This document shows, piece after piece, positions 13,779-46,836 of a DNA stretch of 64,000 nucleotides. The translations under genes and the position numbers were made by a program. The stretch comes from Adineta ricciae (lineage: Eukaryota > Rotifera > Eurotatoria > Adinetida > Adinetidae), in NCBI GenBank assembly GCA_905250025.1, contig CAJNOJ010000153.1:62001-126000 (forward strand), given 5' to 3'. The first letter of the stretch is position 1; every line of letters starts with the position of its first letter. The notes beneath the pieces are model-generated. The model saw only the letters and a list, made by a program, of their open reading frames with translations, was not told the DNA's origin and searched no databases.

Positions 13779-13786
13779 ATATATAT
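13779..13786 (+). promoter_or_regulatory. Candidate TATA box of the macin gene
   Basis: TATATATA lies 80 bp before the ATG at 13866, in a block conserved in copy B (50183-50190). No transcript evidence is available. Confidence 0.4.
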
Positions 13787-13865
13787 AGTGTGAAAGGTAC
13801 GATCGATTCATTGCATTGAAGTTTAATACTTTATTTACTGTGTACAGGAAAGAAAACTTATCTCT

Positions 13866-16770: not shown

Positions 16771-16776
16771 TTACAA

Positions 16777-17504
16777 GAAATGAGTCCCCTAGCTGATGAA
16801 ATCGGTTATGTCAATTGAATAGCTCGAAACATTTTAGTACTCGGTGATGTATTCTTTTTCGTTCTTGGCGTCATTGACAACTCTAGCAATATCGTGGCAT
16901 TTTCTTATTTGCCTCATTTCAACAAAAGATCTACTTCAGTCTTTCTCTTATTTTCATTTCTTGGAAGTCAAGCAACACTTCTTACTGGCTTATTACCTCA
17001 ATTAGTCTATCCACTTACTGGCAACGATCCATTGATTGTTTCTGTTATCCTTTGGAAATTACGATAGTATTTTGGCGGTTCTAGCGCATGTATTGTACTG
17101 CATTGCTTAACATTAGCAGTTGTGAATCAATACCTATTAACGTCTCGTAATCTGGGGCGACATACAATGCTTATATCACTTTAATCATTTGTAGCATAGG
17201 TTCCATCATTCTGCTATCGATATTTCCACTCTTGACATGACGTCCAGCTTTGGAACGATCGTTGACTCGCTTAGCATCAGTTGGTTGTGCTATCAGACGA
17301 ATTGATTCATTATATAAATTGAATATACCACAGACTGTAATTCTAATTGCTCAAGAGAATGTTATTACTAATGCATTCATATTAGATGCTTTTACTATTC
17401 ATACATTTCCGTTTTACACCTATATGATAAATTCGAAAGTGTTTCGTTCAAATATGTCATCTGTATCAATTCAAAAGGTATCCAAAGTTCGTCCTACTGT
17501 TTAA
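16777..17504 (+). pseudogene. Seven-transmembrane receptor pseudogene
   Basis: Translation in changing frames shows receptor-like pieces: VFFFVLGVIDNSSNIVAF (span 1 with an N-containing motif), SVFLLFSFLGSQATLLTGLL (span 2) and CIVLHCLTLAVVNQYLLT (span 3 with an NQY in place of DRY). These are broken by in-frame stops, for example after VILWKLR near 17066. The tail HTFPFYTYMINSKVFR resembles span 7 and the start of the cytoplasmic tail. Missing from copy B. It looks like a dead relative of the receptor at 19130-20160. Confidence 0.65.
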
Positions 17505-19129
17505 TAAAAAGACGTAAGTGAACTTTTTAAGCTCACTTTACATCACATTTTGAAAGAAAAGATCCTTACCTTTCATATTCATCTGTAGAACGTTCTCAAC
17601 GAGCGAAGAATAATTATAATTGGCTCGTATATCAAATATTTATTAACAAGTGTAGAAACAATTACATTCTCATTATTTCCACTTAGCTAGATTCTAGTAG
17701 CAGCTAAATAAAGTTCTACTTTGTAACACAAATGTTTTCTTTCGCTTTATTCTTCGAGGTCAATAGTAACTGATAATCGAGACGAAAGCAGAGATGCACT
17801 GTTTATTTTATTATGGATTGACGACACATGTCGTAAGCAAGTTTATGTATATCAAAAGAATATATTGTGAGTGTATTGTTATTCGACCAAAAATGCGCTA
17901 AATTGACGAGAGAAGAATGTCGTCAAATATATCCACATTTAAAGTTTTTTTCTTGTCTTCTTATCTAATTAAAGTGTACGTATGAAAACACACATAGAAT
18001 TATTCGGATTTATTACATTATCATCCTGATAAGAATCGCACGGTGATTTTGCTTCCGTCGCTGATTCATCAACTTGTGGAGAATTTTAAAATCCCTATGA
18101 GGATATAATATTGCGAGGTATGTTTGCGTACTGTTTGCCTACTTTTTGATTACAACCCTTCTCCTTTACCAAAGCACTACAAATTAAACAGTAAAGCCTT
18201 CCAGGAAGTTGTCATCCTATCGCTCAAACTCGCGACAGTATTTGCAACGCAATCGATTGCACCGTAAATAATTATTCGAAGTTGTTTTCGTTGTCTTCGT
18301 GGTTTTGAGGTAAAAAATGTAGATAATCACCAGTTTTTCTTCAACGTTCGAGTTGGCTTCCCAGGAAGTAGAATTTAGGTACCACATGTTTACGCAGTCG
18401 TGTCAAGCAGAAATGGTTCAATGAACATATTCATTTGATGTCGACCGTACGGTGAAACATCGATTACGTGTATAGTTAGACCTGAGCAGCTTAGTTCGTT
18501 TTCTTCGTTTTATGAATCGTATTATCCAATAAAATGACACAACCAAAGCAAAGACAACAAAATCCATATCGCTGATCAGAAGCACTTGACTTCTTATTAT
18601 GATGGTGTCCATCGAACACCTAACCTCGTTGATACAGAATCAAATCAATAAATTGCCTGATAACATAAAAAGGGACTTGAAGAATATGAAATGGAAAACA
18701 CAGTGATATTGAAACGAAGAATTCCACAGATTTGGAATTTGGGGTAATATATATATATCATGTTCCAACAAGCGAGTTTTCAACATTTGAGCTGCGTTGA
18801 GGTGGTATGACGAAGTAAGAACTATTTTATTATGAAAGGGTTGAAGACTTCTGAATCAACCTTTACCCACTGACACAAATGTAGATAAGTATATTCACTA
18901 GCATGATTTCATCATTTGCGATTCTGTTATTCTGAGTTGATAAATATAGACGTTGAAGAATCATATAATTTTAATCGAGAGAGAGAGAGAGAGAGAGCTG
19001 TAATGAGTGAAGTGTGTTGTATTTTGCTCTTCATACTCACTCGCTGCTTTTCTTTAGTGAAACAACATGCAATTACATTTATAACGATATCTGTTTCATT
19101 ACATATTAGAAGTCCTTTTTTGTAGCATC
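17505..19129. other. Gene-free stretch
   Basis: No gene supported. About 17700-18330 aligns weakly with 52480-53400 of copy B, clearly less than the coding parts do. A (GA)n run sits at 18977-18997. The minus-strand frame at 18418-18612 has one hydrophobic stretch but no counterpart in copy B. Confidence 0.45.
18977..18997. repeat. (GA)n microsatellite
   Basis: About ten uninterrupted GA units, 130 bp upstream of the receptor start. Confidence 0.9.
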
Positions 19130-20160
19130 ATGTCGTTTCACAATCAATCTGAGATGCAAATACTATTAAAGCCAAGTGATACTGTCGTCATGCTAGCAAA
19201 GCTTCAACTAGTTATCAATCATTCTGCGCCAGTGTTTCTTATTTTCGGTACTTTTGGGTTTCTTGGCAATTGTTTTACATTTCTCCACCCGATAATTCGT
19301 ACGAATACTTGCTCAATTTACTTATTATGCGGCACAATCAGTGATGAACTCGACCTTCTTCTTAATCTCCTACCAAATTATCTTACTCTCTTTGGCTATA
19401 CCATTCCGTATGTGGCAACATCATCTTCAATGTGTAAATTTGTTATGTTTATTCATACATTTCTACCTCAACTGTCAGTTAGCTTCTTAATTCTCGCTCT
19501 GATTGATCGATTTGCTTGTTCATGTGATTTAACATCCAAATGGCGTCAAATCAATAGCCTAAAAATAGTTCCTTGGATGATTGGATTAACAATACTCTAT
19601 AGCCTACTTATCGGCATTCAAGCAATATTTTTCTATGATGTTACTCCACCGTTTGCATTATACTGTATACCTACACAATCGTTTTTGTGTAGTGTGCTGT
19701 ACATTATAACGAGCACATGTGTTCAAGTGTCGCTTCTCTCACTTTTTGTGTTACTCATCTTTCGAAATGTGACGCGTAGTCGAAAGCGGGTGGTAAATAA
19801 TCTTCTTGTTTCACAAAAAGTTTTCTTTCTTACTTTTTCTCTGTCTAGAATGTTGCAGCATCTGGTCGAATGAATCGGCAGTTTATTCGTACAACCGTTG
19901 TGCAGGTGTTTGTAACTAGTTTCTTATCAATTCAGTGGATAGTACTCTATTCTTTCGTCATTATCAATAGAGAAGATAGTTTCAATGTGTCTTGGGAACG
20001 AATCTCGATCATTAACTTCATATTTACTTTAGGTTATCACGTATTCTATATTAATAGCGTTAAATCTTTCTATGTGAGCACTTTATCCTCAGCGTTATAT
20101 CGCAAAACTTTCCGAATGGCAATCAAAAAAGCTTTTACCATAAAATACGGTGATCAGTGA
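19130..20160 (+). CDS. Rhodopsin-like seven-transmembrane receptor
   Basis: Two exons, 19130-19792 and 19849-20160 (56-bp intron, phase 0), give 324 residues. Seven hydrophobic spans are visible. Span 1 holds GFLGNCFTF with the conserved GN. A Cys before span 3 (MCKFVMF) can pair with the Cys in loop 2 (YCIPTQ). Span 3 ends LIDRFACS in place of DRY. Span 5 ends in a basic loop RNVTRSRKRV where the intron lies. Span 7 has GYHVFYINSVKSFY instead of NPxxY. An extracellular N-glycosylation site (HNQS) is near the N-terminus. Ligand unknown; lineage-expanded receptors of this type are often chemosensory or peptide receptors. Copy B keeps only a broken exon 2 (53438-53690). Confidence 0.82.
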
Positions 20161-20449
20161 CGTTCGATTTACCTAATTAATACATTTCTTTGGAAATATT
20201 TTGTACGAATGCGATAATACATTTTCCTCTAGCACACAGTATTGAATAGCTTGAAAAACATCTTCAATCAGCAGATCATTCGCATACGTTTTAGATTATG
20301 CTATTGACGAGCATAGTGGTGACACAAATTACATAAAACAATGAAAAAAAAAGCATATTGAGGCTTCATATGTTTCGATACACACGCACACGCATTGAAA
20401 ATCGGATAGTATGATTTAACAATAGTAGAGTAAATCTTCGACATGTGGA

Positions 20450-22392
20450 TTACGAATCCTGATCGGTCTTGGAAGATTGTTCAAATAGTTTCTTCATTTG
20501 ACACCAGACAAATCCCAATTGTGATTGTCGCTGATCATTTAATGACTAAAAAAGAATAAGAATTCACAAATAACACAATCTATGCGCAATAAAATCTTTT
20601 TATTCACTCGTTTTCCAAGCCATAAGTGAAGCCGTTTAGGTGTGGAACAATATTCTGACGGATACTCGGGTTGACATGTTGCAGTACAATGAAGATATTG
20701 TTCGATACGATTAATAATCAAACTGGGATCGTACTGGGAAGCTAGTATTGTGTTTTTCATTGACTTATGAACAACGAAGGAAACACTTGTCAATTGTTTG
20801 AATTTATCAATAAAAGAAATCATATCTGATCTGAATTTAATAATGCACTGATTGATATGTTCGACACAAGGAAATAAATTACTTAATTTTCTGATATTAT
20901 CGGCATTTTCTATGGAAACATCACAATCGCTTAATTTCAATGTACGGACCTGTTTGAACGGCTCTAATCCACATATACGCAAGATTTCTGATATTCCAGA
21001 CGAATTTGCCAGACTTAAAGTGTGAAGTTTTGGCATATGATGTTGAATATATTTCAATAAAGGATATGAGGCGGGACCAATGCTCAAATCTTCTACCTGT
21101 TCCAAGTCAAAGATTGATATTAAGTTCTCCCATCGATCGTTCCAAAAAAGTTCAAGAGTTTTAACCGAACTAAATCGAAAGTTATGGGTCAGAGATGCTC
21201 TTTCATGAACGATTGAGCTTTGAGGTCTATAGAGAATTGGATGATTGGGTACTGTTGAGTATAGAAATGAATTGGATGATATGTTCGCATACGGTAAAGC
21301 GAAGTCAGAAATTGTAAATAGATATCGGTCATGATAAGCGACAAACCAACGTTTTTCTTCAACCCAGAAAGGTGTTCGAAACGAATTCACATACATTTCG
21401 CTTTGTAAACGAAATTTAAAACTGAATGAGGACAACGATTGGGTAATCGTTTGCCAATAATATCCAGTAGCCATAGTCATATCAACATTTTGATACAAGA
21501 TTTTTACTTCAAAATGAGTTAAATTCGGAAAATTACGTAAGAATTGTCCAATTTCATTGAGTGACATTGTTACACCTACAAATATATGTTCCGTTTTACA
21601 CAGTGGCTTGAGACGCTTTTCGACGAGCGGTTTAAATTCTGATGAAAATATGCTATTTTCGTACTTACCGGCACTTGTTACACTAAGTTGTGTCAATGAA
21701 TAACATGGTTGACCTCCAGTAAAATCATACAGGTTACTGAGGCAAAGAGTAAGAGATTGAAGTTGAGGAGCATGCTGAAAAATTTTGTTCACATTAGACA
21801 TTAATGTTCCAGAATTTAGTTTTAAGTGAAGTAGATTTGGAAAATGCATCACTGTTAATACTTCTGAATAGTTCGTACATAAATATCTAAGTCGAAGAAA
21901 TATTTCAGCACAAAACCTATGTGAAGAGGAACAGATGTTCATGTGTGGTGTTCGTCGGTTATCTCTAGAATCAATACGAATTTCTTTCCCACCGAAGTCG
22001 TCAAGCGAAACAGCCTGCAATTGTTTCAATTGAGATAAACTAGGTAAAATTTCGCGTAATGATCCATAGTTGATTTCAATTAATGAGATCGATCGAAGAT
22101 TTATAAATTGTTCGATTTGAAAATAAGATAGGAATAGTTTCGATTGACTGGGTGTGTCATTTTCGTCCGAAAGTATCAATGAAATGACTTGCTCAGGTGA
22201 AATCCATTCACAGATATGATGAAAAGCTGATTTTCTGATGGACCGACAATTGATTCGATATGTGGGATAAGATTTTAAAATTGCATCAATGCGATCATTA
22301 AGATTAGAAAATGAATGAAGAGCTTCATGCGCCCAAAAATATTTCAATACGTCATAAAACAATTCAGTTGGCAAACGATCCAATTGAGTCAT
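20450..22392 (-). CDS. F-box/leucine-rich-repeat protein
   Basis: Exon 1 is 20608-22392 (595 codons). I join it to a last exon at 20450-20545 through a 62-bp intron (GTGAAT..TTTTTTAG), giving 626 residues. Without splicing the frame would end in EFLFFFSH inside the intron. The last exon's frame is kept in copy B, which supports it. Residues 4-38 are an F-box (LDRLPTELFYDVLKYF), which would bind Skp1 of an SCF ubiquitin ligase. The rest consists of irregular leucine-rich units such as LSQLKQLQAVSLDDF, LLHLKLNSGTL and VRTLKLSDCDV, the usual substrate-binding part. Target unknown. Copy B holds only its 3' end. Confidence 0.82.
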
Positions 22393-23596
22393 TTTCGTAT
22401 TATTATTACTCTAACTTTGCTGTTTTGTTTTGTGTAAAAGTGAATTTTCGGTTACCTTTTAATACGTGAAAAGATAACAGTATTTCATTTATCTCAGTTT
22501 GTTTTGAGTAATTTGCATGATATAAATTTACGCATTTCTTATGTTCATCTACCTTCGTTTTGTTGATATACTTTTATGTGAAAGTGACTCGTTACAATAC
22601 TTCAACATAATTTTTTAGAATTGCTAGATAAAACGAATTCAATGCTTAAAAACATCCCACATCCTGAATAGTAGAGTATAAATGGAAGAAAATCAAGTAA
22701 AAAGCTATCGCATGTTGTGTTTTTTTTTGTGGGAAAAAGTGAACTAATATATGTTTTAAGATAACTTTTTTTCTTTTCTTCAGTCTGCTTTTCACCTCAT
22801 CTGTGCTAAGGATTTACTTTGAGTTCGACGGCAGAACAAAGATCACTAGAACACTGGGAAAAGATGGTGTGTTTATGAGCGATGAGATCGCATCTTTCGC
22901 TAGCAAACCCACGCGTTCAACTGACAGTACAAAATAATTAAGAAAAATATGAAAGTTCACCCTCAAGTCATTCGAAAAAAAAATTCTTCACTGAATATCT
23001 TTATATATTTCTTCTTCATAACTTTCTATCCGTAAAATTTAGCATGAAAAATCTTTCCATTATATTTGTTTAGTGACGTATGATCAATTTTTCTCGAAGT
23101 TTGCATACATGTTTTTTATCCTTGAAAACACACATGACTCGTGCATGGACTTGTAATTTTAAATTAATAACAATGTTTCAAGTATCACGCGGAGAAAGTT
23201 CAAGCGAGATTCATATCTCCGTATATAATTATTGTTCTAGAGTGTTGAGCTAGTGCCATCAGATAGAAAAAATATCACATGATATAAAGAGACGAAGTGA
23301 AACACCGTGAATATTGAAATATTACACTCCAGCTCATTAGTACATTCACCTTCCCTCATACATCGTTTAACATGGATATAATCTCATATATTGCTTTGAT
23401 ATGATATGACATCCTACCTAGGAGCACCGATGTTCACAATGATTACCGTTCTTGTTATATAGAAGGTACATGAATATTAATTAAAAGTATTCATATCTAT
23501 GAGCTTTTTTCAATATAATTATTAACATAGACCGTTATTCCTCTGCGAAACGCTGCTCTTCTTTTATAGATCTTTTTAAGTGAAACTACAGTAATC
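22393..23596. other. Gene-free stretch
   Basis: Divergent spacer between the F-box and second receptor genes. No coding or RNA feature seen. Not represented in copy B. Confidence 0.5.
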
Positions 23597-24554
23597 ATGT
23601 TATCAAGTATCGCTTTCACTATCATTTCTATAGCAAGTACTAGTTTTACAATTTTGATCACTCTTCCTATTGTTATTATCCTGTACATTCGTTTACACCG
23701 TGAACGAGCTACTGTGATTCTCCTGTCAGCCAATACGTACGTGGGCTTACTCACATTTTCTATCATACTTCTGTCGACAAACATTAACGTTCTTCGAGCG
23801 GATTTGTTCGAAACGAGTTTGGTAAATACCGGTGGGTTAACTGCTTGTCAGCTTCAAGGTTTTCTTGTCTATGAACGCTTCGGCTGCTGTTATTCAAGTT
23901 TTGTTCTTCAAGCACTCTCTCGTTTATTAAAAGTCTTATATCCCAAACGAACAATTCTTCAGGTATGTGTACATAATAATCAGATGTAAGAGTAAAGGTC
24001 TCTTTTTCGTATTTTAGTCATTCAAATTCAATCTAGTTTGCATTGTCTTACAATGGATTCTATGCTTTCTTCTTCTTCTACCTTCTTACATATGGCGAGA
24101 TCTATTCTATTCACTTTACGAATTTGATTATTACTGCGGCATACGTTATGAGAGATTATTTTATCTCTGGTATGTCATTTTCAATATATACGTCTTACCC
24201 CTTACTTACATGGCTATAATCTACATTCGATTGATGTATTATATACGTCGTGGAAACCTTGAATTATTGCAAACACAACGAGGACGAAGTGCACAACGTA
24301 ACTACGTTGTTATACGTCGTATTTTATGTACTATGACTGTTCTGGCTTTAGCAGGACTACCGAACGTCGGTTTAGCTATTTTAGCATATATCAAGCCGAA
24401 CTTGTCCGGCTATTATTATATGTACCGAATTCAATGGATGGTTCCAACAATAACGATGTGTACTCTTAGTATAGTACTTGTATTTATTACCCCACAGCTA
24501 AAAAAGGTCATCATGAACGCAAAACTCCCAGATAAACAAGTGATGCCTACTTGA
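23597..24554 (+). CDS. Seven-transmembrane receptor, second family
   Basis: Exons 23597-23962 and 24018-24554 (55-bp intron, phase 0) encode 300 residues. Hydrophobic spans: ITLPIVIILYIRL (1), ANTYVGLLTFSIILLST (2), CCYSSFVLQALSRLLKVLYP (3, with SRLLK in the DRY position), LVCIVLQWILCFLLLLP (4), YVIFNIYVLPLTYMAIIYI (5), VVIRRILCTMTVLALAGLP (6) and MCTLSIVLVFITPQLKKV (7). Cys pairs TACQL and YYCGI fit the usual span 3 to loop 2 bridge. Compared with the receptor at 19130 the spans do not align closely, so it is a different subfamily. Found only in copy A; its place in B falls in the 5.3 kb missing at the N at 54558. Confidence 0.8.
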
Positions 24555-24742
24555 AGTCAAACCTTTAACTGTGCTTATATAACAAATGTATTGTGAAATC
24601 AAAATAAACTTTGTTCTATATATAGGACTTTGCATGAGATAGTGATAAAAATAAATATTTCGAGTGTTCTACTACTTCAGACACATTATCAGAGCGAAGA
24701 AAATATATTGCCTTTCAAGCTCTAAGGCTGTGTTTAGTTAAT

Positions 24743-26128
24743 ATGAATAAGTCATTTATTTTTCAGATAGTTCATATAGTACATCATCTGTATAAAAATA
24801 TCTGCTACTTTCGTTATTCCCTTACATCTGCTCGAAACACGTGCGCTGCTGTTTATGTGCTGAATGATTCATTCACTATTTCGCAATGTGCTCTTAGGCA
24901 AATCGATGATGTTATTGCGCATATTAATGTAAATATAGGTCAAACACATCTTATACCGTCTATTCATATTAGATTTCTCGTGTATATGGCTACACAATCA
25001 GCAAAATTAACTTCATTTGTTTATGAGGATTTAATTCGTCAAATTCAATTCATTCAAACTCATATAATTCAGTTGACGAACTATCTAAACGATCGATGCC
25101 AAACGGATTTGAAATCACGATCATTCTCTTTTAGTGATCCATTCGGAAACGAAATCACTCAGAAGTTTATGGATCATGAAATCATCGAAATTATCTTTAA
25201 AAAATATGTCACAGAATATATATCAAAACATTTACGACCATTTATCAAAATCGGGAAAATGTGCCACGGTCACATCCAACTGATGTACGAACATGAGCTC
25301 AAATTTAATGCATCGCAATTTCGTGATGGCTTCCAGTTTATTGCGTGTTGTGAAATAACCGTTTGGGTGGGCGATTACGAAAGTTCAATATGCAGACGAG
25401 TGGTAATACCAGTGCGTTTGTTGGATAGTATTGAAAGCGTTAATAACGGCTTGAAGATTCCACCGAAAATTACAAATGTTGAATTTAAATCATTAAGAAA
25501 CGATCGAAATATGAAACCGACGAGAGATAATTGGGACCAAGGTAAACCACTCATGTCTTCGGATACAATTGGTTCGTCTCAATTATATCAAAACGATACA
25601 ATTCTAATGGCAAAATTGATACAACCACATGCAGATCCTGCGCATTCCAGTCCTACTTTTCAAATATTCGTCAGAACTCTTAAGGGTCAAGTTATTACAT
25701 TGACAGTCCGTTCTGACATGTCCATCTGTGACGTAAAAATACTTATACAAAACAGTGAAGGTTCATCTCCTGACATGCAACGTCTAATCTTTGCTGGAAA
25801 ACAGCTGGAAGACGATCGAACTCTGGCAGATTACAACATTCAGAAAGAATCAACATTGCAGATGGTGCTCCGATTGCGCGGTGGAATGTATCATTTTACA
25901 AGTGGTCGACAAAATTTTCAACAGTTATCTTATGATAGTGCAAAAGCAATCCAAAATATTCTCAATTATGAACTCACAAGTATCAGTGATGTGAGTGACT
26001 CATCACCAATGGAAATACAAGACAAGATTTTACAAGCACAAACACTTCTTTCGGCACTATACAGTACAATCAGAGAATATTCAGTTGCAAATAATATTGT
26101 CAATCTAAAAACGATTATTCTCGAATAG
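24743..26128 (+). CDS. Ubiquitin-domain fusion protein
   Basis: A single open exon of 461 codons from the first ATG. A TTTTTCAG follows at about 24758-24767, so the true start may lie in an upstream exon. Residues 1-305 are not recognised. Residues 306-381 are a full-length ubiquitin ([40 protein letters not shown]). Lys27, Lys48 and Lys63 are kept; Lys6, 11, 29 and 33 are replaced (Arg, Gln, Leu, Ser). Eighty further residues follow the RLRGG, rich in Ser, Gln and Leu. If a deubiquitinase cleaves after Gly-Gly, the tail is released. If not, this is an internal ubiquitin-like domain. It lies just after a receptor and is missing from copy B. Confidence 0.75.
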
Positions 26129-26513
26129 AAAAATCAAAGGGAAAGGAACTCTGTATTTCATTTTACAAATAAACATTTTTATACAACATATAGTTTATAA
26201 GTCATTCGAGCATCATCGTAACGAGAGTGAATGTTTAATCAGCCGACAACAACTTGACGACGTGGGTGTGGCTGTGAAAGAATCGATGTTAGTAATAACA
26301 TACTGCAGCAACAGAAAACTTTCCAACTTTGTAAGAGAATGAGTCATCAGGGAAATTCCGACAAGCTTTTATTATTTATATTACATTTCGTTTCGCAGAA
26401 GGAATTAACCGTGGTACTTCCGTTCTGTTTGCGACTACAAGCTCATATACGTAAAAATATATATTCAGTGCATTGCATTGCATTATATTAGTTTGAACAA
26501 AAAAAAAACAGCG
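26129..26513. other. Short gene-free stretch
   Basis: 3' flank of the ubiquitin-fusion gene and 5' flank of the dehydrogenase-like gene. Copy B resumes at the position matching 26256. No regulatory motif recognised. Confidence 0.5.
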
Positions 26514-27725
26514 ATGAAAAAAATCGTTGTCATTGGTGCTGGCCAGATTGGCAGAGAAACGGCTTGTCAAGTAGCTGAGATGGGCTATGATGTTGATATT
26601 ATCAACAGATGTACCAACGAAAGCCAAGCAGCTTCATCTGCAGATCAAGCAGGGGCGCGGGCTATTATCGACAAGAATAGCCTCAAAGTGGTGGAACTAC
26701 TGAATGCTCGTATGACAGGCAAACTAACATTTAAAAAGTATGCGAATGAAGAAGAATTGGGTGTTTTGCTATGCGAAGCTAATTTTGTAGCAGTTTGTGT
26801 CGGAAGAACTTTAAATTCCATGTCGAACGAGAGTAAGGGCATACCTCATCCTTTACAAGGCGCTGTGGAAAATTCCAACATATATGAAGCTATTGGCAAA
26901 GCAATTGCGGAGAATGCTGCCGATGACGTGCGTGTTTTATCAACTGCAATTCCGGTGGAAGTCGTTGCAAATACTTTGTATAGTTCAATCAAAAAGAACT
27001 GGAGCAAATCAATCGAACGGAAAACTGAGTTTCATGCTGGACGCATCTGTGCAGGTGGAACTTTGCTCGATACGATTCGCTTAAAAAATGTAGTTTTAGA
27101 TTATATCAACGCAAAAGAAGAAAGAGCTACCGAAATTATTGATGTTTACGCCCTAGGAAGTCATGGATATGGCCCATATTCAGATCAGTATGAAATTGGT
27201 CTTATGGCCTCGACACATTGTGGGTCTATTCGATTTGGTGGTGTCAGAAGGTTAGATGGAACTTGGACTGATGGAGATTTGATTCCATTCGATCAGATCA
27301 TTAATTATGCTGAGAAACAAACACTAATGAAAGCTGCTTTTACACAGCCTGTTTACATTAGGGACGCTGCTGGAGAACGAGCCTTGCACAAAGAAGCTGG
27401 CAGAAGTAATGCAGTGGTCATTAAAGCATTCCTACAACCGGAACTGTTCCAAGGTATGAAGTTGTCATTGGCCGTCTTCAGTAAAGACAAGCAGTTGTTT
27501 TACGGAGGAGTTTGTACAATGACTGAAAGCGGCTTGTTTGAAGAGATACCACCCTCAACTTATTTATCATCTCAAGAACAGGAAGTATTCAATGTACGAA
27601 TACGTGGCATACAGAAAGTAAATGATGCTATCAAAACCACTGCACCAGGTACGTCTCTTGACACGATTGTAGCATTGGGTAAACAATTGGATTTGCAACC
27701 TCAACAACTTATTGGCTTCATATAA
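26514..27725 (+). CDS. Lactate/malate dehydrogenase-like NAD-binding protein
   Basis: One exon, 403 residues, starting at the ATG of MKKIVVIGAGQIGRETACQ. The dinucleotide fold GAGQIG is at residues 8-13, with an acidic residue (DVDI) after strand 2. Further matches to the LDH/MDH superfamily are VLSTAIPVEVVANTLY (where the family has a NPVD-type turn), ICAGGTLLDTIRLKNV (GTxLDxxR) and YALGSHGYGPY, with His217 where the catalytic His of GEHG lies. The substrate-loop arginines cannot be placed with confidence, so activity on lactate or malate is uncertain. About 90 residues longer than typical LDH/MDH. The lack of introns, among intron-bearing neighbours, would fit acquisition from bacteria. Copy B is frameshifted. 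Confidence 0.7.
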   Translation: MKKIVVIGAGQIGRETACQVAEMGYDVDIINRCTNESQAASSADQAGARAIIDKNSLKVVELLNARMTGKLTFKKYANEEELGVLLCEANFVAVCVGRTLNSMSNESKGIPHPLQGAVENSNIYEAIGKAIAENAADDVRVLSTAIPVEVVANTLYSSIKKNWSKSIERKTEFHAGRICAGGTLLDTIRLKNVVLDYINAKEERATEIIDVYALGSHGYGPYSDQYEIGLMASTHCGSIRFGGVRRLDGTWTDGDLIPFDQIINYAEKQTLMKAAFTQPVYIRDAAGERALHKEAGRSNAVVIKAFLQPELFQGMKLSLAVFSKDKQLFYGGVCTMTESGLFEEIPPSTYLSSQEQEVFNVRIRGIQKVNDAIKTTAPGTSLDTIVALGKQLDLQPQQLIGFI

Positions 27726-29844
27726 CTCGAGATCATTTTTGTAATGTTTCTTTGTTGTTCATTCTAATTCCGAAAAGCGATATAATTATGATACCGTTCC
27801 TCATAAGAATTCATATCTTCAACAATCTCGCACAACGAGAATATTCGTATGTGGTAGGAATTCATTATATTTGAAAGAAAATACCAGTTATCCATTATAT
27901 ATACTAAACACAGAAAGAAAAAAGCAGCTTTTTCTTCTGTAACAGTAGAAGAGTTTTGCTTTTTTCAAGATTTACGTAGTGCAAATCTTCCAGTTTCTAT
28001 CGTAGCACAACTATAGTTTGATCATTTGCAATAAAAACGGTTCTGCAGAAAAAAAGTGTTTCGAGTTTAACATTTTTTGAACACATACAATTGCAACAGT
28101 GTAAAAACACTGCAGCAAACTCAATGTCACATACTAATAAAAACTTGCCATTACATGTATTTCTAAATACCAGCTGGAACTGATGAAAAGGAAAAGAATT
28201 AATTTCAACGTGAGTGAAATATCGCATTTGCAACACATTACAATTAACAACTGAAATCGTTTTTCTGTTAGTCTCTTTTTCTACTGTTTGCATAGTGAAG
28301 GTTCTCTTATTCAATGATCATTGAATGTATGAAAAGAAGTTGTTGATTTTAACAAGCATATTTTTGTAGGATGCGTTCATTTTTACTTTTTTTTTATTTT
28401 GGTTTCAGTGTTGGGAGGATGATTTTTTGTCAGTATCACATGGCTGCTATTCAATGATTTTTCATATCAGATAAGCAGAACAATTCAGTACAGATGTTTT
28501 TAATTGGATCATAATTGAAATATTCAATTGCTTTATCGTTCTATCAAACCTCTTGTTTAGTTTTCTCAATATTTTTCACCAAATTTCCAAACATCTTCGT
28601 AAAAGTTATCATGCGTATGATTGTAAATATTCTTTATGTGCTGAGTTTACCGTGAAGAACTTGATATGTTTTAGAGTTTTTCTGAAAATTGTATATATTC
28701 TGGACAACACATAAACTGTCAGAAATTCGAAAAATATTCCATAAAACGGCCATAGTAAAAATCGTTTTGACTGTCGGGAAGAGACACAACTGACCTTCTA
28801 TAAAAACATCATAACGCATGAAATCCACAATTGATTTTATAGTTAGATATCGCATTCGTGCGTGATTATTAAGTTCCGTTTAACTTAAGATTTACAATTG
28901 GTGTACATGCTATTCTACGTTTATATCTTATAATGAAAAATCGTTGAACAATCTCAGTCGTCATATTTTGGAAAGTGTTGATGACGGACCAAGACCAACA
29001 TTCATATACTCTTTTTGAGTTCTTTTTTTTTATTACGACAAAAAAATATTTTATTCGCGAACATGCTAAGATTTTGATTCGATGAATTTTACCTGAAAAG
29101 TATAAACTACGTTGCGTTCTCCCTTCATATTTCATTCTCTTAATATTTGCATTTTGTCGTCTTATTCTTTATTCTTTCATTTCTCTTCTATACTAAATAT
29201 TCTATCCAGTCGATTGAAGTAGAAAAATGCTATAGAGAGGATGACGGTGAGAAAGAACATAGTTTTTATTGCAGCACAAAACAAAAAAGCTTCTTATCAA
29301 GTTTTTTGCTTTCTGTCTATTTTATTATTTGTCTAAGATAGTGTTTCATTACCACGAGTTTCGTTTACGTACAGTAGTTAGTAATTTTCGCCGAAAATGC
29401 AGCATTCTCTGTCGCTTCTCTATAGTTTGTATGAAAATTCTCAGAGTCGGTTGACGAAACCAAAGTCAGTATCTCTCATAAAATTGTCTGTTTTTAAACC
29501 CTATCAATAAATAATGCGTTTCAAACTTTTTGAACAAAGTAATATACTCGCGTGTAGAATTCCTCCGAGCAAAATTCAGTACTTATCGGGATATGATCGC
29601 TGAGCCCTGTACTGCAGTTTTAATCTCACTGGTTGTAGACCGAACTCGATGAACTTTATCTGTTTCAACTGTCGCTTTTTTTATTCTCATCCACACCTGT
29701 CCTAAGCATTATATCCATGTGTCTTTATTTGTTCTAATTGATGAATTTATCTATGATTGCAAATGTTCTGACTATGAGGTTAGGTGGTGATTTCTTCGAC
29801 TATCTTTCTTGCAGATACGTTCGACTAGCAAGTCTGTTGGATAC
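27726..29844. other. Long gene-free stretch with a possible conserved minus-strand frame
   Basis: No gene recognised. A minus-strand frame at 27997-28314 (ending FIANDQTIVVLR) and another at 28634-28855 (DFMRYDVFIEGQL) become one continuous frame in copy B (56776-57162), where about 410 bp between them is missing. The similarity includes many replacements, so coding is doubtful. Several indels against copy B are bounded by short direct repeats. Confidence 0.4.
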
Positions 29845-31313
29845 ATGGCATTAAATAAATCCGATAAAAAGAAATGGGCGATTTCAGAAGAAAACCAAAG
29901 ACGATTACTGGAACGATACAGTAACAACGAGGCACTCAAGCATGCGCAGGTTGCAATTGACTCCTTCGGAGACAAAAAGAAAAAGTTACGACAGCGAATG
30001 TACGTGCAACCCGTCGGTCAAATACCAAATTTTGAGAGACTTAGGGGTTCGGAGTCATATGACGACGAAGCTGTTGAACACTATCTTGAGCGTGCAATCC
30101 TCTATGAAAATGAGACAGCATTACGTGAAAAACGCGATGAGTATGCTATCATCGAAGACGACTTTGGGCCAATGTTAGAAAAAAAACTGGGAAATGGTAC
30201 AGCTCCATCGTTCAGAACCCTTCGGAAGGCCTGTGAACGACTGGATCGAAATTCTGACCAACACTTCGAAAAAAGTCAGGTAACATACACATATTTCACT
30301 CAGCGAGGAGTTGAACAAGATGATGCTAAAGCCTGTGCTATGGCCATCGCATTCTATTCGGGTGGTTACAGCGCACTAGTCAGTACATCAGCAAATTACG
30401 TTTGTCGAATGGAACGGAAAGTAGCTGAATTGTATACAGATGAAGAAAACCTAAATACTGATGCGCTCATGGTCATGTATTACCTAATAAGAGGTCTTGC
30501 TCGTATCGATTTCCACTGGGGTGTTGTGACACGTTATGTTGACTTGGACAATGATGATGTAAAAGATTATAAACCTGGGGAAATCTTGACTTGGCTGCAG
30601 TTCAGCAGTGCAGACAAAGGTGGAAACAATATGATACACTTTCAAAATCGTAATACCGTTTTCAAAATAACATCACTTACTGGTCGAGCTATACAATACT
30701 TTTCGAACTGTGCCGACGAGGAAGACGAAGTTCTTTTTCTTCCACATTCGTCTTTTCTTGTATGTAGCGTCGTCGATAGTCGGCCCCAACGACAAATATT
30801 TCTGAGACAAGTAAGCCACACATTCTTCTATAGTTCGCTGTCTAAAATACATATACTTTGGTCTATTAGATCGAATTGGGTCTAAGTAAATACGTCATCT
30901 TGTGGGTTGACGACAATATTTTTGACGAGGACTGGGGAAATAAGCAACTCATGGAGAGAGCAACAACGCAAGGCACCAGTGTTAATGTTCATTTCATTCC
31001 CAAATCGAACACGGAAGCAGCACTTTCGTTTCTACGCTCAGAATTTGGACAACGTCTGAAAAAAAGAGAATCCTTTCGTATCGTCACTGATATGAAGCGA
31101 ACAAATGAAATTGATCCTAGTATGGCGGGCGTTCGATTACTTGTAGGTGTACGGAAATTAGGTTTTCAACAAGCTTGTCTAATATTCACGGGCCATGAAG
31201 AATCAGCTTACAACAAGCTGCAAAAGGCGTTCGGTACTGATAAACCTCAAGGTATTAAAGTCACCCAATACGACTCCGAACTGGAGAAGTTTGTCCTTTT
31301 CAAACGCTGTTAG
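29845..31313 (+). CDS. ADP-ribosyltransferase fused to a receiver-like domain
   Basis: Exons 29845-30810 and 30870-31313 (59-bp intron, phase 0), 469 residues from the ATG of MALNKSDKKK. In-frame sequence continues upstream to 29809 in both copies, so the start is uncertain. Residues about 130-322 match arginine-specific ADP-ribosyltransferases (R-S-ExE type): YYLIRGLARIDFHWG with Arg216, FSSADKG with Ser254-Ser255, and DEEDEVLFLPHSSFLV with Glu293-x-Glu295. Such enzymes move ADP-ribose from NAD to arginine. Exon 2 (residues 323-469) reads like a two-component receiver: YVILWVDDN with Asp336-Asp337, RIVTDMKR with Asp396, and CLIFTGHEE with Thr429. The usual Lys of strand 5 is not clear. The first 120 residues are charged and unrecognised. 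Domains and exons coincide. Intact in copy B. Confidence 0.78.
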
Positions 31314-32239
31314 ACAATCGAGCATAAACACAAATTTTTCCATTTCAAATACACTAAATGAACTTAGAATCGAGAACTTTTATAAATTACTCCTCTATTA
31401 TTTTGACGATGATGATGATGAATAGATCAGACGAATACACATAATGAAAACCACCGTCAGTTTTGTGCACTGTTTTCTTGTATTAGAACAGAATGGAATA
31501 AATGAAAAAAAGAAAGAAATATAGATCGTGCTCAAAGATCACGTTTGTTCATAACATAGAGAGTTCGATCTATTAACTGATACGAGCACTTCTAGACATG
31601 TGATGAAGAGATTCACATGCAAATTCTTTATTGCAATTGCATTTATTTAAGAGAAAATGTGTAAACATTGCATTGCCACAAATCATTGCCTTCTCCTTTT
31701 CTTCAAAATATTCGGACAAAGCTATGTAAACTTAACTCTTCATATGGCAATGTCGAAACTAGACATGTATTAGGAATGAAAGCAATCGTATGGTTTTGAA
31801 CATACATAGATCTTTATTGCTTTCAACGTAGAATCTGGGTAAAAATGTGAATGATTTTTTCCTTCTTGTATTTGACTTTTCCAGAATGAAACTTTCTGCT
31901 TCCATTCATGATTGTACTAAGGTAAACAAAAGTGTTCTACATATGATTTTACTATTTTAATCAAATAAGTAATTGTTTATCTTGTCTGTATTTGCTGACT
32001 CTTATTGAAAGACAGATCAGTCGGCAATGAAATCAGCAGGGAATGGTCTTTTCTACAAACAATAGAAAAATCATTTGCAGAGGCACACTCAATATTCACT
32101 AACTCAACAGTGCAAGATGCGCTTTATTCTTCGTCAGTGAAATAACAAGTAATATTTGTTGAATATATGTTTATTCATCTCTGATATGTTTCATAATTAT
32201 TAGCAATTTCATACAATTTACCAAACTTTTGTGCCAATG
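31314..32239. other. Gene-free stretch
   Basis: No feature recognised; aligns with 59646-60559 in copy B with many small differences, as expected for non-coding sequence. Confidence 0.5.
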
Positions 32240-32913
32240 TAACTTAGAATCGAACTTGGATAACATTTCCCGAAGGTAGCAGTACGGATTACAGAGGCTT
32301 TGGTCTACTCATCAACACGAATGATAGGTTCTATATAAACAGCCAGCATGACCACAAAATCTATATGTAGCTCTATGAAGTTACTACTCCTACATATAAT
32401 ATCTTCAATAATTTGAATACAGAATTTATTATCTTTCTGACGGACAATGGTGCTATGTATGAGAAGCATACAGTTATAGTTCACTTTAGGTCGTTGTTGG
32501 CACCGGTACTAACAGCTCAGATTTAACGACACTTTCTGCTCCTCATGGCATATATTGCTAATGCTGACTTTCGATTATACGTGGTTTACTGTAGAAATGA
32601 TAAAATTCAATGATTTGATTCTGGATTATTGAATGGAACATCAATAGTCAAAAGTGGAACACCATCAACAGTATCATTTGATCAGCCAAACTATGGACTT
32701 GTAGTTATGGCTCATGGAAGTCTGTTCATCATAGATAGACGTGGACAACGCATTGTTCAATTCAGATACATTATCGGATGCCCCGGAGATACAATATTAA
32801 AGTCACCCGAAACAATAACCTTTGATAGTCATGGTAATATATATGTTACTGGTCGAGACAATGGAGGAATTCAAAAATTTGCTCTTGCAACGAATTGCTT
32901 TGGTGGATATTAA
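32240..32913 (+). pseudogene. NHL-repeat protein pseudogene (copy A)
   Basis: Pieces of an NHL protein close to the exon-2 part of the NHL-D8C gene are readable in changing frames: INTNDRFYINSQHDHKIY, an LSAPHGIY..ADFRLYVV stretch, GSLFIIDRRGQRIVQF and NIYVTGRDNGGIQKF. They are broken by stops (one follows HKIYM; an ATTTAACGAC stop lies near 32521) and by a deletion of about 130 bp relative to copy B, at repeated CTATGTATG-like sequence near 32453. The last piece ends with a Cys and a stop, without a D8C exon. Confidence 0.75.
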
Positions 32914-33639
32914 GACAAACAATATTCTACATGCATTTTCCATGACTACACAGAAATCATGCACAGCGTCAATAACTACACATGACTTGCATACAACTTC
33001 AATGGTCACAACTCTTCAGTCTTCTGATTCTAAAACGATTTTACACTCAAGCTGCCGTCCTTGCGAGGGGAAAATTGCGAAAGAAAAATATGATCAAACT
33101 CATGGACGCACTGTTGTGGAACAATCGATTCACACTCAGATTCAGCGCGGTTATAATCTAAGTGTACCTCCCACTCGTTCGCCAATTTCCATAAGGTTTC
33201 TGTTAAACAAACGTACATTCGATTATTATTTGCTTTTCTCTTTTCAAATAGTGAACCAAATCATTTGTCGACTCGATTCCGAAGGACATGTTTCTTTCTT
33301 CTTTCTCTTTTTTCTACTAATGCCACGTATTTTTTCTATTTCTTACGTTTCACATTCAACATGCAGGTAATCTTGCCATGTGCAGGTTTATTTTTCTCGC
33401 TTTACATATCGTCGAAGCGATGCGTAACATTTTATCGAATTATCATGAACACGGCGATTTCTTTTCCTACCTAGTTTACAAACTCTTCTTCCTTTTTAAT
33501 TTCTCTCTTCCATAAACCATATCAACTAATCATCAACATGTCGCACAAAGTAATGTTTTTTTTAAAAGTACCGGGGTGCTTTGTAGATATAATCTAACCT
33601 ACTTACACTAATATTTGCTTGGGATTGTTTAATTCAACT
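32914..33639. other. Gene-free stretch
   Basis: A Thr/Ser-rich frame (32822-33370) runs through here but overlaps the dead NHL gene in another frame and has no start or motif of its own. T-rich pyrimidine tracts are common. Aligns with 61506-62229. Confidence 0.45.
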
Positions 33640-33922
33640 ATGGCTATAAATAATGGCGAAACTAATGCAGGCGATGCGCCATTTGTATGTATTTTGATTA
33701 TTATTTTATCGAAGTTAATGGTTCTGCCTATTTTTCTTAGGCTAAATCTGATCCACCAACGTCTCACTCATCAAATAAGCGACAACCGACGTCAGATGCA
33801 CTACAAGAACACATTCGCGTTGTATCAGGATGTGCAGCCAATATCTTGTCTTCAATTGGTATTATATTCCTTAACAAATATATCTTCTCCCATTGCCAGA
33901 TCAAAACGGTGACGTTAACAGC
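33640..33922 (+). CDS. SLC35E3: SLC35E3-like transporter, 5' part only (truncated by contig end)
   Basis: Exon 1 is 33640-33684 (MAINNGETNAGDAPF), intron 33685-33740, and exon 2 runs from 33741 to the N at 33923. The readable part ends in the first membrane span (ANILSSIGIIFLNKYIF) and QIKT. The complete gene is in copy B at 62230-63396. The sequence stops matching copy B exactly at the N, so the truncation is most likely an assembly break and not a mutation. Confidence 0.85.
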
Positions 33923-40668: not shown

Positions 40669-40720
40669 AATTAAACAAAAACGCAATCGACTTTGTCTCA
40701 TCTGATCAGTTAAGAATTAC

Positions 40721-40750
40721 TTTCTCTTCAGATTCTTCGTTGTTACTCAT
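40721..40750 (-). CDS. First exon of the TM-NHL gene, copy B fragment
   Basis: The ten-codon first exon (MSNNEESEEK) is identical to 4524-4553, followed by the same GTAATT donor. The rest of the gene is cut away at the N at 40668. Identity of this tiny exon in both copies supports its assignment. Confidence 0.65.
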
Positions 40751-41166
40751 CGATACAATAGAAAAAAAAGTAGAATCAAATAGATGAAGTCGTCACTTAG
40801 AAGCGGAGCTACTAGGCTAATATCAGTTATTTCGTTTCCTTTTCAATAATATTTTTCAAGCAAATTAAAACTTATGTTTTTTACCATCTGTCAGAAAAAA
40901 AGACATACCTCATTTCACACAGGATGTGAAAACAAACTTTTTCAATCGACGATAAATACCCTGCACCATAAAATGAAATATGCAAATAAATCAACGATTA
41001 GTAACCAGTATTTGAATTCCTTTTCAGTGTTGCCGTCCTAGTTTTTAGGATTATGATGCAAAATTATTGGACATCTGCTGTTATTTTGACGATTTTATGA
41101 ACGTAAGGATTTGTCGATGAGAAGCAGTGAGTTAGAGAAAAACATCATTCACTGCGATACTTCATC

Positions 41167-44100
41167 ATGCGTCTCAAATTTTACTCACAATTTTTCCATC
41201 AATCTGTTCGTGACAAATGGGGAAGATGGAATGCTTTCAGCTCTCGATCATCAGACCCATTGATTAAAAGTCGAGAGATCTTATCCACTCGTCTATACAT
41301 CACTCTCGTGATCATTTCTTTCGTCACTTTAACCACGTATACGATGATTATCGATCGAATTGAGAACAAAAGTGTGCCATTTCCAAGCCAATCCAAGTAC
41401 TTAGTCTTGCAAAAGAAGTATGCGAATAATCTTCAATGCTCGTGCACTGGAATCGCAATTCTACACAAAAACTTTGTCGAAACAAAATCGATATTTCACC
41501 AGGTGTGTTCAAGTGAATTTCTTTCGCAACAATGGATCGATTTGGTGTTCAAAGTAGATTCAACCTCTATTTATCCAATCGATCTTCGAACAAGTTTAAG
41601 TGCAATGTGGCAATTGGTTCGATCATTTTGTCAAAGTGCAAACACTGCAATTCTGGATATACTCAAACAGTTTCATAACTCACCATTGCTGAGTTCTGTG
41701 CTATTGACGGAAGAGTTGTTGAAAGCATCCGTTCAAACTACTTTACATTCGCTACGGCAAACCATATCGTCGAGTTTTATTCAATCAGTGATTATTCCAC
41801 AAAAAATGGCACAAGCCAATCAATTGGTAACAGCTTTATCAACAAATTATATTCCTGTAACAAAAGAATATGGACATATAACTGAGCGTTATCCATCTTA
41901 TGACATTGGATCCTTGGAAGTATCGACTTACATTGGAATGTTCGAAAATAAATTTATATTACAAAATTCATCGGTAACTTGTTCTTGTAAGAACAACGTC
42001 TCGTGTCCTCTGCCTGGCAGTTTTTACAACTATAGTAGGTTAGACAAACTTGGAACTTATGACATGAACAAAATTCAACCGGTTACTACGTTACCGGGCC
42101 TTATCATCGATTGTTTACCAATTCAATCGACATTTTTGTCAACATTAGAATGTTTCTATAATCAAACATGCTTAGAACTTCTTCTCTCATTTTACTCAAC
42201 TCAAACCAATTTTTCCGTTCTCGACAAAATTTTACCGAGTCGTTTCAACTTAACTACAAAAATCGAATATCTGGTCAGCGAACTTTTTGTGGAGAAAATT
42301 TTCAACGAAATAAACTACAGCAAATATTATGCTGAATGCAAGCCAAATGTCTGTCGCTATAGTTATTTAAACCGCTTCAATTGGTTTTATCTTATTACCA
42401 TTCTTCTTGGACTTTTTGGAGGTATAACAGCGGTATTGCGCATCGTTACTCCATATATCATTCAGATATATTTCTTTATAAAAGCTCGTTTATGTTCGAA
42501 ACAAGCACGAAGCATCCGCGACGATCAAAGTGTCGTCTCCAATCAAAATCGATTAAGAAATCTTTTCCAGCAAATTGAAAGTCAAATCATGAATTTGAAT
42601 ATTTACTCAAGTAGTTCGCAAGATCAAACTCGTATATACCGTGACATTCTCTCCACCTGGTTATACATCATTCTATTATTAGTTTCCATCTGTATAAGCA
42701 TTTTCTATTCCGATTTGTCATCTCAAACAGTCAAAGAAACCATTCCGTATCCAACCATCGAACAATATACAGAATTATACAAACAATATTCAACAGATCT
42801 AGCTTGTCCGTGCACAAACATATCAATACCTTATGGTAAATTCCTGACAGTTCAAGTGAAATATCATCAGATATGCTCGAGTGATTTCATTCAATCCTGG
42901 TGGTATGAACGTTTTACGCCTAAAACATCTCTTGACATTGAAATGAATTTTGTTTCGTTCGCTTCATCATACTTTCAAACGTTAGCTGCATTTTGTGAAC
43001 TCGCGAATGTTACAGTACAAGATGTCATTCAACGGTTTTTGACAACGACTTTTGTTGATGCACAACTCATATCCAACGAGACATTTGCTTTGACATTTCA
43101 GTCTCCAATACATTCCCTAATGGAATTAACACGGATTGAATTAGCCAATGCTATCTCGCTAGCGAACACTACGCTGCATGGTAACCATTATTTGAGTAAT
43201 ATGAGAACAAGCACTTCTCTTTGGCCGCAATTGTTCCGAATCGATGGAAAATATTTAATACGTATAATCTCTTCTCAATTGTTTAGTGTTGATGTAAAAA
43301 AACAAATATGTTATTGTATTTATGACTCGACCTGCATAGTAGATTATATGCTAATGCTCCAGTCGATATCCACGATTGTTAACTGGCAACTTGAAGGGAT
43401 ACATGGAGGTTGTACCGTGATTGATTCGGTATTGAAATCATCAATGATGTGCTGGTTTAAAAAAGGATGTGTGACTCGATTGCAAATACATAATTCAAAT
43501 AGGAACACGTCGAACGCTTTGCCAATACGGTTACTTGATCGAAGTTTATCTAGTCGATATTCTCCGGATGCGCGAATTGAAAACATTTTAAATGATATTA
43601 TGATTGAAAATTGGAATTTCTCTCATTCATTCGACAAATTTTATCACGAATGCAAACCTATGTCTTGTACATTCACTTACGAGAAGAAAACGAATGTTGT
43701 CTACATCGTTACGGTTCTTGTTAGCCTTATTGGGGGAATTAATATAATTCTTCGATGGATTTCTCGAATCATTATCACCATCGTATTGAAAGCCATTGTT
43801 GCGTTGAAATATAAACGATTAATGCGAACACGAATCGTAAAACAAGACGAGAACAGTAAGTTACTCTTCGGTTAGGCAATTCGAGGAAGAATTCAGGGAT
43901 GACTCTTATATATTTTTAGGAACCAGGGGAATTGGAGGCAAGATTATGAGTATTTTGCATGAGTTTAAAAATAACATTTTGATGTTAAATATCTTTCACA
44001 ATGAATCGATTGATATCGAGTCCATTCGTCGTCAACGAATATCAACACGAGCTTACTTAGTCATCTTTTCGATGTCGGTTTACATCATAGCTATCTATTT

Positions 44101-45211
44101 TATATATTCTAACACAACGGCAGTCCAATCGGTACAAAAACCTTCAGAAGATGACTATGACAAATTGTTCATGTCGTATGCGAGTTCGTTGGATTGTCCG
44201 TGCAAGAAAATATCGATCGACTACAAGCATTTTGTCGGAATCACTAGAAAATTTCATTCGGTATGCTCGAGTGATTTTACCACTAAAAACGAATGGCTTG
44301 ATTATTTGTCTCGTCGAACGCATGCGGACCTACGCGATCGACGCGATGTTCGTGGAAATGGTCAAGCATATTTTTCGCTGCTTTCGACTCTATGCCAGAT
44401 AGCAGAAACTGCAGTTGAAAATGCAAATAATCGATTTCTTCATAGCGCATTTATCAATATCCATTTGATACCGAAAGCTGATTTTCAAAACCAAATTGAA
44501 AGCACTTTCTTACAATTTCGAAGTATAACTCTAGCAAAATTCGCTCGAACTTTACAACTCACGCGTGATGTTCTGAATGGAAATGCTTTCGTGTCTTCCC
44601 ATTCTCTCAATTGGGAATGGTGGAGAGATTTATCTCGTGATTTCTACACCCTACCGGCGCGACCAGTTGTGACTGAAAACGGATGTTCTTGTGGAACACG
44701 AAGTGATTGTACCCAGTCAGGAGGAGTTTACAATGCAGTAGATCAGTATCAAGTGTTCGCAATGCCTGGTTTGAATATCGGATGTTCAGCTGTTGAAACA
44801 CTATTACGTTCGACATTGGAATGTTTATATGAACAGAAATGTATTGATTCATTAGTACATCATATTGCAACGAATTCAGGTGGAAATCCTCGAATAAATA
44901 TGTCAAGTATCAATTCTTCAATGTCAAGTCGTTTTCAAAAGAATACAAGTATTAAATATATTATAGATGAATTATTCATGGAAGACTGGCACATCAATAG
45001 TTCTTATTCGTCGTTTTACAATCAATGCGCACCAGTTACATGTTCATACAAGATTCAAGTTGATGATTATGTTATTTATACGACTTCGAAAATTTTAGGC
45101 TTTTATGGCGGATTAACTGTTACTTTACGGTTTAGTATTCCGATTATAGTTGGATTGATTTTCCACCTACGAGATAGATGTCGAAGAAATACAATTAATC
45201 CCGCTGATTGA
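41167..45211 (+). CDS. Three-unit, six-span cysteine-rich membrane protein (copy B)
   Basis: Exons 41167-43855 and 43920-45211 (64-bp intron) give 1326 residues, one fewer than copy A because of an in-frame loss of one lysine codon at MRLKFY. All six spans, the three FxxVCSS motifs and every cysteine block seen in copy A are kept. Replacements are scattered and mostly conservative (Ile/Val, Lys/Arg, Asn/Ser). The frame is open throughout despite many silent changes, which argues for selection on both copies. AATAAA lies at 45233-45238. Confidence 0.85.
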
Positions 45212-45333
45212 TTTACTGAACACATGCTTTTGAATAAATAAAAATTTCGCCTTCCTGTATTCTCTTTAGTTTTTGCTTATTTCAGATTTCTGAAGGGGTT
45301 ACAATACGATTTAACACCAATCAAAACCTCGCA

Positions 45334-46710: not shown

Positions 46711-46836
46711 TGAAGCAATCGTTTCGTCAAAATATCTTAGAGTATATTTCTATTCTTTAATTAAAAATAAATTGATTTATTGTATTTTCGAGCTCTCGAA
46801 GTGTACTATAGTAAGAAAAAAAGTTTAGCATATCAC

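Follow-up and report, generated by a model that had tools for sequence, protein, structure and literature searches.

The window, which denotes the whole 64,000-nucleotide stretch analysed here (62001-126000 of contig C153 of Adineta ricciae, within a genome of 130 Mb), holds a gene at 29845-31313 whose two exons join across an intron of 59 bp into a single open frame of 469 amino acids (Table 1). The original prediction, that an animal gene fuses an ADP-ribosyltransferase (ART) to a domain of receiver fold, is borne out by this frame and by paralogues that carry both domains in a single frame. To our knowledge, animals lack two-component proteins, and we found no report of an ART-receiver pairing in the open-licence literature. 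The pairing is real and constrained, and it is made of two known kinds of domain.

Table 1. Features of the ART-receiver gene, its second copy and the duplicated segment (window positions)
Feature	Position	Strand	Remark
Candidate 3' splice site	29802..29815	+	pyrimidine-rich run followed by CAG, about 30 bases 5' of the ATG; kept in both window copies
Exon 1	29845..30810	+	322 codons, open frame; variable N-terminal region (residues 1-129), ART domain (about 130-322)
Arg230, ART motif Arg	30532..30534	+	placed by aligning eight further ARTs of this genome
Ser254, ART Ser motif	30604..30606	+	same alignment of eight ARTs
Glu293-Asp-Glu295, ExE motif	30721..30729	+	same alignment of eight ARTs; E295 invariant in six distinct paralogues
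GT-AG intron of 59 bp	30811..30869	+	falls precisely between ART and receiver
Exon 2, receiver-like (pseudo-receiver) domain	30870..31313	+	147 residues and stop; profile match to bacterial LWVDD receivers, AlphaFold model, PDB fold matches
Acidic pair Asp14-Asp15 of exon 2	30909..30914	+	end of strand 1
Asp74 of exon 2	31089..31091	+	phospho-acceptor position, end of strand 3
Thr107 of exon 2	31188..31190	+	end of strand 4
Exon 1, second copy	58177..59142	+	
Intron, second copy	59143..59201	+	
Exon 2, second copy	59202..59645	+	one replacement relative to the first copy
Segmental duplication, first unit	4472..33922		contains the first gene copy; similarity is in blocks and does not cover the whole length
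Segmental duplication, second unit	40669..62512		holds the second gene copy

Gene structure and duplication

The ART domain of the window protein was recognised by PF01129 at residues 239-323 (E = 1.1e-4) with 22.0 bits, just under the cut-off of 22.3, and the same family scored above the cut-off in five paralogues on other contigs (C391, 40.0; C386, 36.6; C437, 32.0; C630, 30.1; C238, 26.8). Two elements of the R-S-ExE core proposed at the outset, S254 and E293-x-E295, stood when eight further ARTs of this genome were aligned to the protein, but the motif Arg is Arg230 and not Arg216. The ExE motif is the mark of arginine-modifying ARTs, and by this motif the enzyme would be a mono-ADP-ribosyltransferase. 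The ART repertoire of the genome comprises at least 150 scored PF01129 matches (553 candidates, of which 150 were scored).

The second gene copy in the window lies at an offset of +28332, and its exon and intron lengths are identical to those of the first. Eleven replacements separate the copies in exon 1 and one in exon 2, confirming the equal exon lengths and the single replacement in 147 receiver residues noted earlier. Using the NG86 method with 300 bootstraps, we obtained a dN/dS between the copies of 0.147 (0.067-0.326) for exon 1 and 0.023 (0-0.097) for exon 2. Since dN/dS is low in both exons, the constraint is real and strongest on the receiver, as had been suspected.

Both copies sit within a colinear duplication in direct orientation that is interrupted by indels and spans about 29 kb in the first unit and about 22 kb in the second; of its nine matching blocks, eight are 86-95% identical and one is 71% identical. 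The duplicated units may represent a tandem repeat, or else alleles that the assembly placed one after the other. Because both gene copies sit in this colinear segment, they count as one observation. Among the other contents of the window, two very long duplicated ORFs of 915 and 914 amino acids (4906-7653 and 41131-43875) had no Pfam match at E ≤ 0.01, ORFs with NHL repeats occur on both strands (3253-4146, 9556-10482, 11073-11969 and 35163-36059), and a Pyr_redox_2 oxidoreductase lies just upstream of both ART-receiver copies (26409-27722 and 54668-55324).

The pyrimidine-rich element ahead of the start codon is possibly an upstream exon boundary or a trans-splice acceptor. Provided that the 23-base sequence taken for the bdelloid spliced leader is correct, its matches mark the genome as that of a bdelloid rotifer. 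The exact pattern had no match in the genome; with up to three mismatches there were 46 matches, 41 of them sharing 22 of the 23 bases, and the reversed control gave none. In the copies that were read, the leader is followed by GT. Spliced-leader RNA genes were often arranged as inverted pairs about 150 bases apart (contigs C6, C8, C43, C77, C99 and others).

Paralogues elsewhere in the genome

Searched at the protein level with exon 2, the genome showed nine receiver places, and a diverged query added a tenth (C882). The ART-receiver family thus consists of ten loci: the two window copies and loci on eight other contigs, four of which hold both domains in an open single frame while the rest are broken, stopped or cut off. 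Weak receiver matches on C146, C79 and C108 (E 0.01-0.43) were read and set aside as chance.

The four one-frame fusions are intronless and encode proteins of 530 (C391), 469 (C386), 578 (C437) and 465 (C238) amino acids. As these paralogues hold both domains in one stop-free frame, the fusion does not depend on the splice, and at those loci separate genes for the two domains are excluded. The junction between the domains reads R-Q-[IV]-E-L-G in six of the seven aligned rotifer proteins; the seventh, C630, has an in-frame stop at the R and so between ART and receiver. Stops break the C877 paralogue, which has an intron-like GT...AG gap at the position of the window intron, and frame changes break that on C503. 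On C882 only the last 55 receiver residues are present, at the contig end. ART sequence lies upstream of the receiver at nine of the ten loci; at C882, the tenth, the contig ends before that region. At the level of the family, the two domains form one protein.

Trees of seven sequences, built alike from the ART and the receiver, grouped C437, C386 and the window copies (supports 0.88-0.98). The placements of C391, C630 and C238 differed between the two trees with weak support. Receiver identity equalled or exceeded ART identity in 21 of 21 pairs (one tie), and among six distinct paralogues 41 of 147 receiver positions were invariant, as were 33 of 193 ART positions.

The front ends of the paralogues vary. 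On C437 a dual-specificity phosphatase domain (PF00782) is fused in frame, in which Ser seems to occupy what we take to be the Cys position of the active enzyme; a rhodanese match in the ORF upstream stayed below the cut-off. On C238 a caspase ORF (PF00656, E 5.5e-37) with visible SGHG and DCC motifs lies directly upstream of the ART-receiver frame (L119:3775-4686, minus strand) and ends at a CAG|GTAAGT donor adjoining it. Nineteen candidate introns would keep the frame from caspase to ART-receiver, three of them with the CAG|GTAAGT donor. The C238 protein lacks the Arg, the Ser and the first Glu of the ART motif as well as the acceptor Asp of the receiver, and its frame is still open. This joint loss, a single case, suggests that the receiver Asp may matter only while the ART works. 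A nucleotidyltransferase ORF (PF01467, L124:2282-3067), which we take to resemble the NAD-making enzyme NMNAT, lies directly downstream of the C391 ART-receiver, and the C503 counterpart carries a similar ORF (L123:7327-8103).

The receiver domain and its bacterial relatives

Searches of Pfam, NCBIfam and PDB sequences with the rotifer receiver rows returned matches at chance level only. Among the families listed for the eight rotifer rows at E ≤ 10, a setting at which filtering removes most matches weaker than about 0.1, PF00072 was absent. The rotifer alignment yielded no confirmed match in a first scan of genome contigs or in a scan of viral contigs, and no plasmid or phage matched the receiver of one paralogue in a tblastn search at E ≤ 1. 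A six-frame intronless search of the rotifer genome for canonical receivers (PF00072) found none, but this search misses the ART-receiver family too. A single bacterial receiver used as query also found no match in the rotifer genome; since the same query misses the known rotifer family, that result is uninformative.

Homology became apparent with a bacterial receiver class beginning LWVDD, represented by a typed bait with which natural loci were retrieved. Of 83 loci the best 80 were kept, and by reading 76 belonged to the LWVDD class and four were canonical receivers. Comparison of the rotifer and bacterial profiles with hhalign gave Prob 98.5, E 2e-15 and a score of 89.1 over 90 columns, versus at most Prob 2.3 and a score of 18.5 in 40 column-shuffled controls. 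Run over 935 ORFs (632 distinct), the bacterial profile scored 24.9-31.6 bits on intact rotifer receivers and 7.4-18.0 bits on pieces of the broken C503 and C877 receivers; the best other ORF reached 4.8 bits and the best reversed ORF 4.0. The W-V-D-D mark was found in 76 of 76 bacterial and seven of seven readable rotifer rows, and its W in none of the four canonical rows. Likewise, Arg77, the DMxR mark three residues past the acceptor, occurred in 76 of 76 bacterial and eight of eight rotifer rows and in none of the four canonical receivers. Judged by both marks and by its C-terminal place, the rotifer receiver belongs to this bacterial LWVDD/DMxR class. Of 75 bacterial proteins that entered a domain scan (L071, with an internal stop, was omitted), 73 matched PF00072; it is through these relatives only that the rotifer receiver is tied to that family.

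Structure prediction gave a corresponding picture. AlphaFold modelled exon 2 poorly as a single sequence (pLDDT 41.5). Supplied with alignment A4, in which exon 2 was joined by the other window copy and by 51 bacterial receivers out of the 76, it returned five alternating strands and helices in a (beta-alpha)5 arrangement (pLDDT 86.7, pTM 0.84); the acidic pair lies at the end of strand 1, Asp74 at that of strand 3 and Thr107 at that of strand 4. As homology guided the choice of A4, we read this model mainly as a test of consistency and less as independent proof. All 13 PDB structure matches at E ≤ 0.001 were receiver or response-regulator entries, at moderate TM-scores by query length (0.50-0.58 over these first 13 rows), and the lower rows included other Rossmann-like alpha/beta proteins, for example a complex I chain and decarboxylase domains. 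A predicted fold unlike the alternating beta-alpha receiver would have spoken against the original proposal; the model with A4 and the PDB matches both point to a receiver.

The DD, D and T of the receiver recognised at first sight correspond to D14, D15, D74 and T107 of exon 2. The acidic pair and the Thr are invariant across six paralogues, and Asp74 is kept in seven of the eight aligned rotifer rows. Thr107 is kept in all eight, whereas Ala stands in its place in 59 of the 76 bacterial relatives. The active-site Lys is different. Its canonical column is marked by three canonical rows, the match of the fourth stopping short of it, and the window copies lack a Lys both there and within two columns either way. 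None of the eight rotifer rows has Lys at the canonical column itself; of the 76 bacterial rows, one has it and 4 show a gap. A shifted Lys occurs in four rotifer rows, two columns on in C391, C386 and C503 and one column on in C437 (in numerical order, the four are rows L011/L121, L012/L124, L013/L120 and L016/L123), so that another alignment could take these residues as the active-site Lys. The window copies do not show the full DD, D, T and K set of a canonical phospho-receiver. By a published definition, the lack of at least one of five active-site residues (PMC12632262), the receiver of the window copies is a pseudo-receiver.

In the bacterial ORFs the receiver is C-terminal in 75 of 76 cases, with at most 44 residues after it; the exception, L086, has 222. 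Partner domains among the 75 scanned proteins included TIR_2 (11), DUF4062 (5), KAP (2) and one each of CHAT, SIR2_2, Peptidase_C14 and HNH. Since the effector-type listings number 38 less overlaps, at most 33 of the 75 proteins have a named domain of this type and at least 42 are without one. The architectures include CHAT-TIR-receiver (L042), caspase-receiver (L051), SIR2-receiver (L089), TIR-receiver (L107) and KAP-receiver (L112 and L114), and some of the relatives are recognised, at the level of domains, by the PADLOC models for Thoeris, Dsr2, QatA, PifA and caspase proteins. The partner domains of this minority suggest a role of the bacterial relatives in defence or cell death. The likeness to bacterial conflict proteins that had been pointed out earlier is supported: the bacterial kin share the C-terminal receiver, and a minority carry it on NADase, caspase and NTPase effectors.

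We scanned ORFs of at least 150 amino acids at the 76 loci (690,664 bases) for a histidine-kinase box and found none with a crude pattern, which was positive at one of the four canonical-receiver loci. A stricter pattern had missed even the canonical loci, and the looser one, accompanied by positive strings, was used instead. In L042, L051, L089 and L107, this receiver class stands C-terminal to immune-type effectors with no kinase box nearby.

Proposed mechanism and comparison with known systems

The explanation we favour, tentatively and at close to an even chance, is that of a small, old bdelloid family in which a C-terminal pseudo-receiver of the bacterial conflict-system class controls a NAD-consuming ART. 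It builds on what can be read from the sequence: the fusion and its occurrence on eight further contigs, a receiver with bacterial homologues and a predicted receiver fold, window copies without the phospho-coupling Lys, the constraint, and a C-terminal place shared with the bacterial relatives. The receiver would keep its metal-binding acidic pocket, and a ligand or partner protein, not a histidine kinase, would set the switch. The receiver would keep the ART inactive until its own conformation is altered by a signal of stress or infection, and the released ART would then modify target proteins. As to origin, the receiver would be bacterial and would have been joined once to a home ART before the paralogues split. 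By analogy with bacteria, which place this C-terminal receiver on some effectors without a neighbouring kinase, we infer that the rotifer receiver probably binds its ligand or partner via the acidic pocket and so sets ART activity.

Alternatively, the receiver may be an enzyme and not a switch, its pocket binding or cleaving a cyclic or phosphorylated NAD derivative and thereby tuning the substrate or product pool of the ART. The intact acidic site, the NAD-consuming partner and the TIR and SIR2 fusions among the bacterial kin would fit such a role. An activity on NAD derivatives has been proposed for cRec, a divergent receiver linked to NAD/ADPr enzymes and described as never occurring in histidine-kinase systems (PMC7824862). 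However, that activity is itself presented there as a prediction, and the cREC family PF20274 had no match in a six-frame intronless search of the genome, among the families listed for the eight rotifer rows or among those listed for the 75 bacterial proteins. We consider an enzymatic receiver unlikely.

The original prediction had also allowed for a phosphorylation switch, in which Asp74 would be phosphorylated by an unrecognised kinase or a small phosphodonor and would turn the ART on or off. The acidic pair, acceptor Asp and Thr are in place in the window, and both the retention of the Asp in nearly all rotifer rows and that of the Thr in the face of bacterial Ala agree with this, as does the Lys one or two columns past its canonical place in four rows. 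Against it stand the window copies, which are without a Lys there or nearby, the bacterial loci without an adjacent kinase box, and a six-frame intronless search of the rotifer genome for HisKA and Hpt, the two kinase/phosphotransfer families covered, which found neither. On balance the phosphorylation part of the prediction is weakened and the shifted Lys still speaks for it; we regard a true phospho-switch as quite unlikely.

Somewhat less probable still is a passive scaffold or localisation domain, kept for stability or partner binding and receiving no signal. The open frame of C238, despite the losses in both of its domains, could be explained in this way, but the acidic pair and the Thr are invariant across six paralogues, and the sole aligned paralogue without the Asp has lost its ART motif too, a single case that hints at a link between the two losses. 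That the gene is an assembly duplicate or a pseudogene without a protein is highly improbable: the colinear copies could be alleles joined in assembly, and C877 and C503 are broken and C630 stopped, but dN/dS is far below 1 in both exons and five members, with the window pair counted as one, are open across both domains on different contigs.

If a ligand- or partner-gated pseudo-receiver does control the ART, the rotifer family would give a tangible example of an animal using a control module from bacterial conflict systems: a receiver domain of predicted fold, strongly constrained, on a NAD-consuming enzyme in a bdelloid. The animal may then run a borrowed bacterial control switch. A broader version, which we hold as possible but doubtful, is that the animal acquired the receiver tail found on bacterial NADase, caspase and NTPase immune effectors, fused it with an ART of its own and combines the pair with different front ends (phosphatase in frame on C437, caspase frame directly upstream on C238), giving receiver-gated effectors that work without a kinase and possibly sense a NAD-derived signal. 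Bdelloids are known for their desiccation tolerance, and a stress role such as the one put forward at the outset may exist. At the level of GO processes, ADP-ribosylation is named for over-expressed genes in desiccation and radiation work on Adineta vaga (PMC10809525), and a spaceflight study places it among under-expressed genes (PMC12220480). Pseudo-receiver signalling in bacteria is called a mystery in a study of these domains (PMC12632262); the rotifer family would, if the favoured explanation is true, offer a tractable route to how pseudo-receivers signal.

Among known systems, NAD:arginine ADP-ribosyltransferases (PF01129) share with the rotifer protein the Arg, Ser and ExE motifs, which align, but the C-terminal receiver sets the family apart and is found at 10 loci only in this genome. 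Canonical response regulators of two-component systems (PF00072) have the (beta-alpha)5 fold, predicted here for the rotifer domain, and the acidic pair, Asp and Thr; the window copies differ in having no Lys and no Pfam match, and no HisKA or Hpt was found in the six-frame search of the genome. Bacterial pseudo-receivers (PMC12632262) are comparable in that the window copies are without one of the five active-site residues, whereas the rotifer domain is in an animal and on an ART. cRec (cREC_REC, PF20274) is likewise a divergent receiver tied to NAD/ADPr enzymes and not to histidine kinases (PMC7824862), but the rotifer receiver does not match its profile. The closest comparison is with the bacterial LWVDD/DMxR receivers (L042, L051, L089, L107, L112, L114). 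Here the rotifer protein differs in its partner, an ART, in a longer helix-1/2 region, in an identity of 17-29% between the window exon and the 51 bacterial rows of A4, and in keeping the Thr where most bacterial members have Ala. In common are the receiver class, the C-terminal place, the rarity of Lys at the canonical column (1/76 in bacteria), a neighbourhood without a kinase box in bacteria and, for some of the bacterial members, a partner that consumes NAD.
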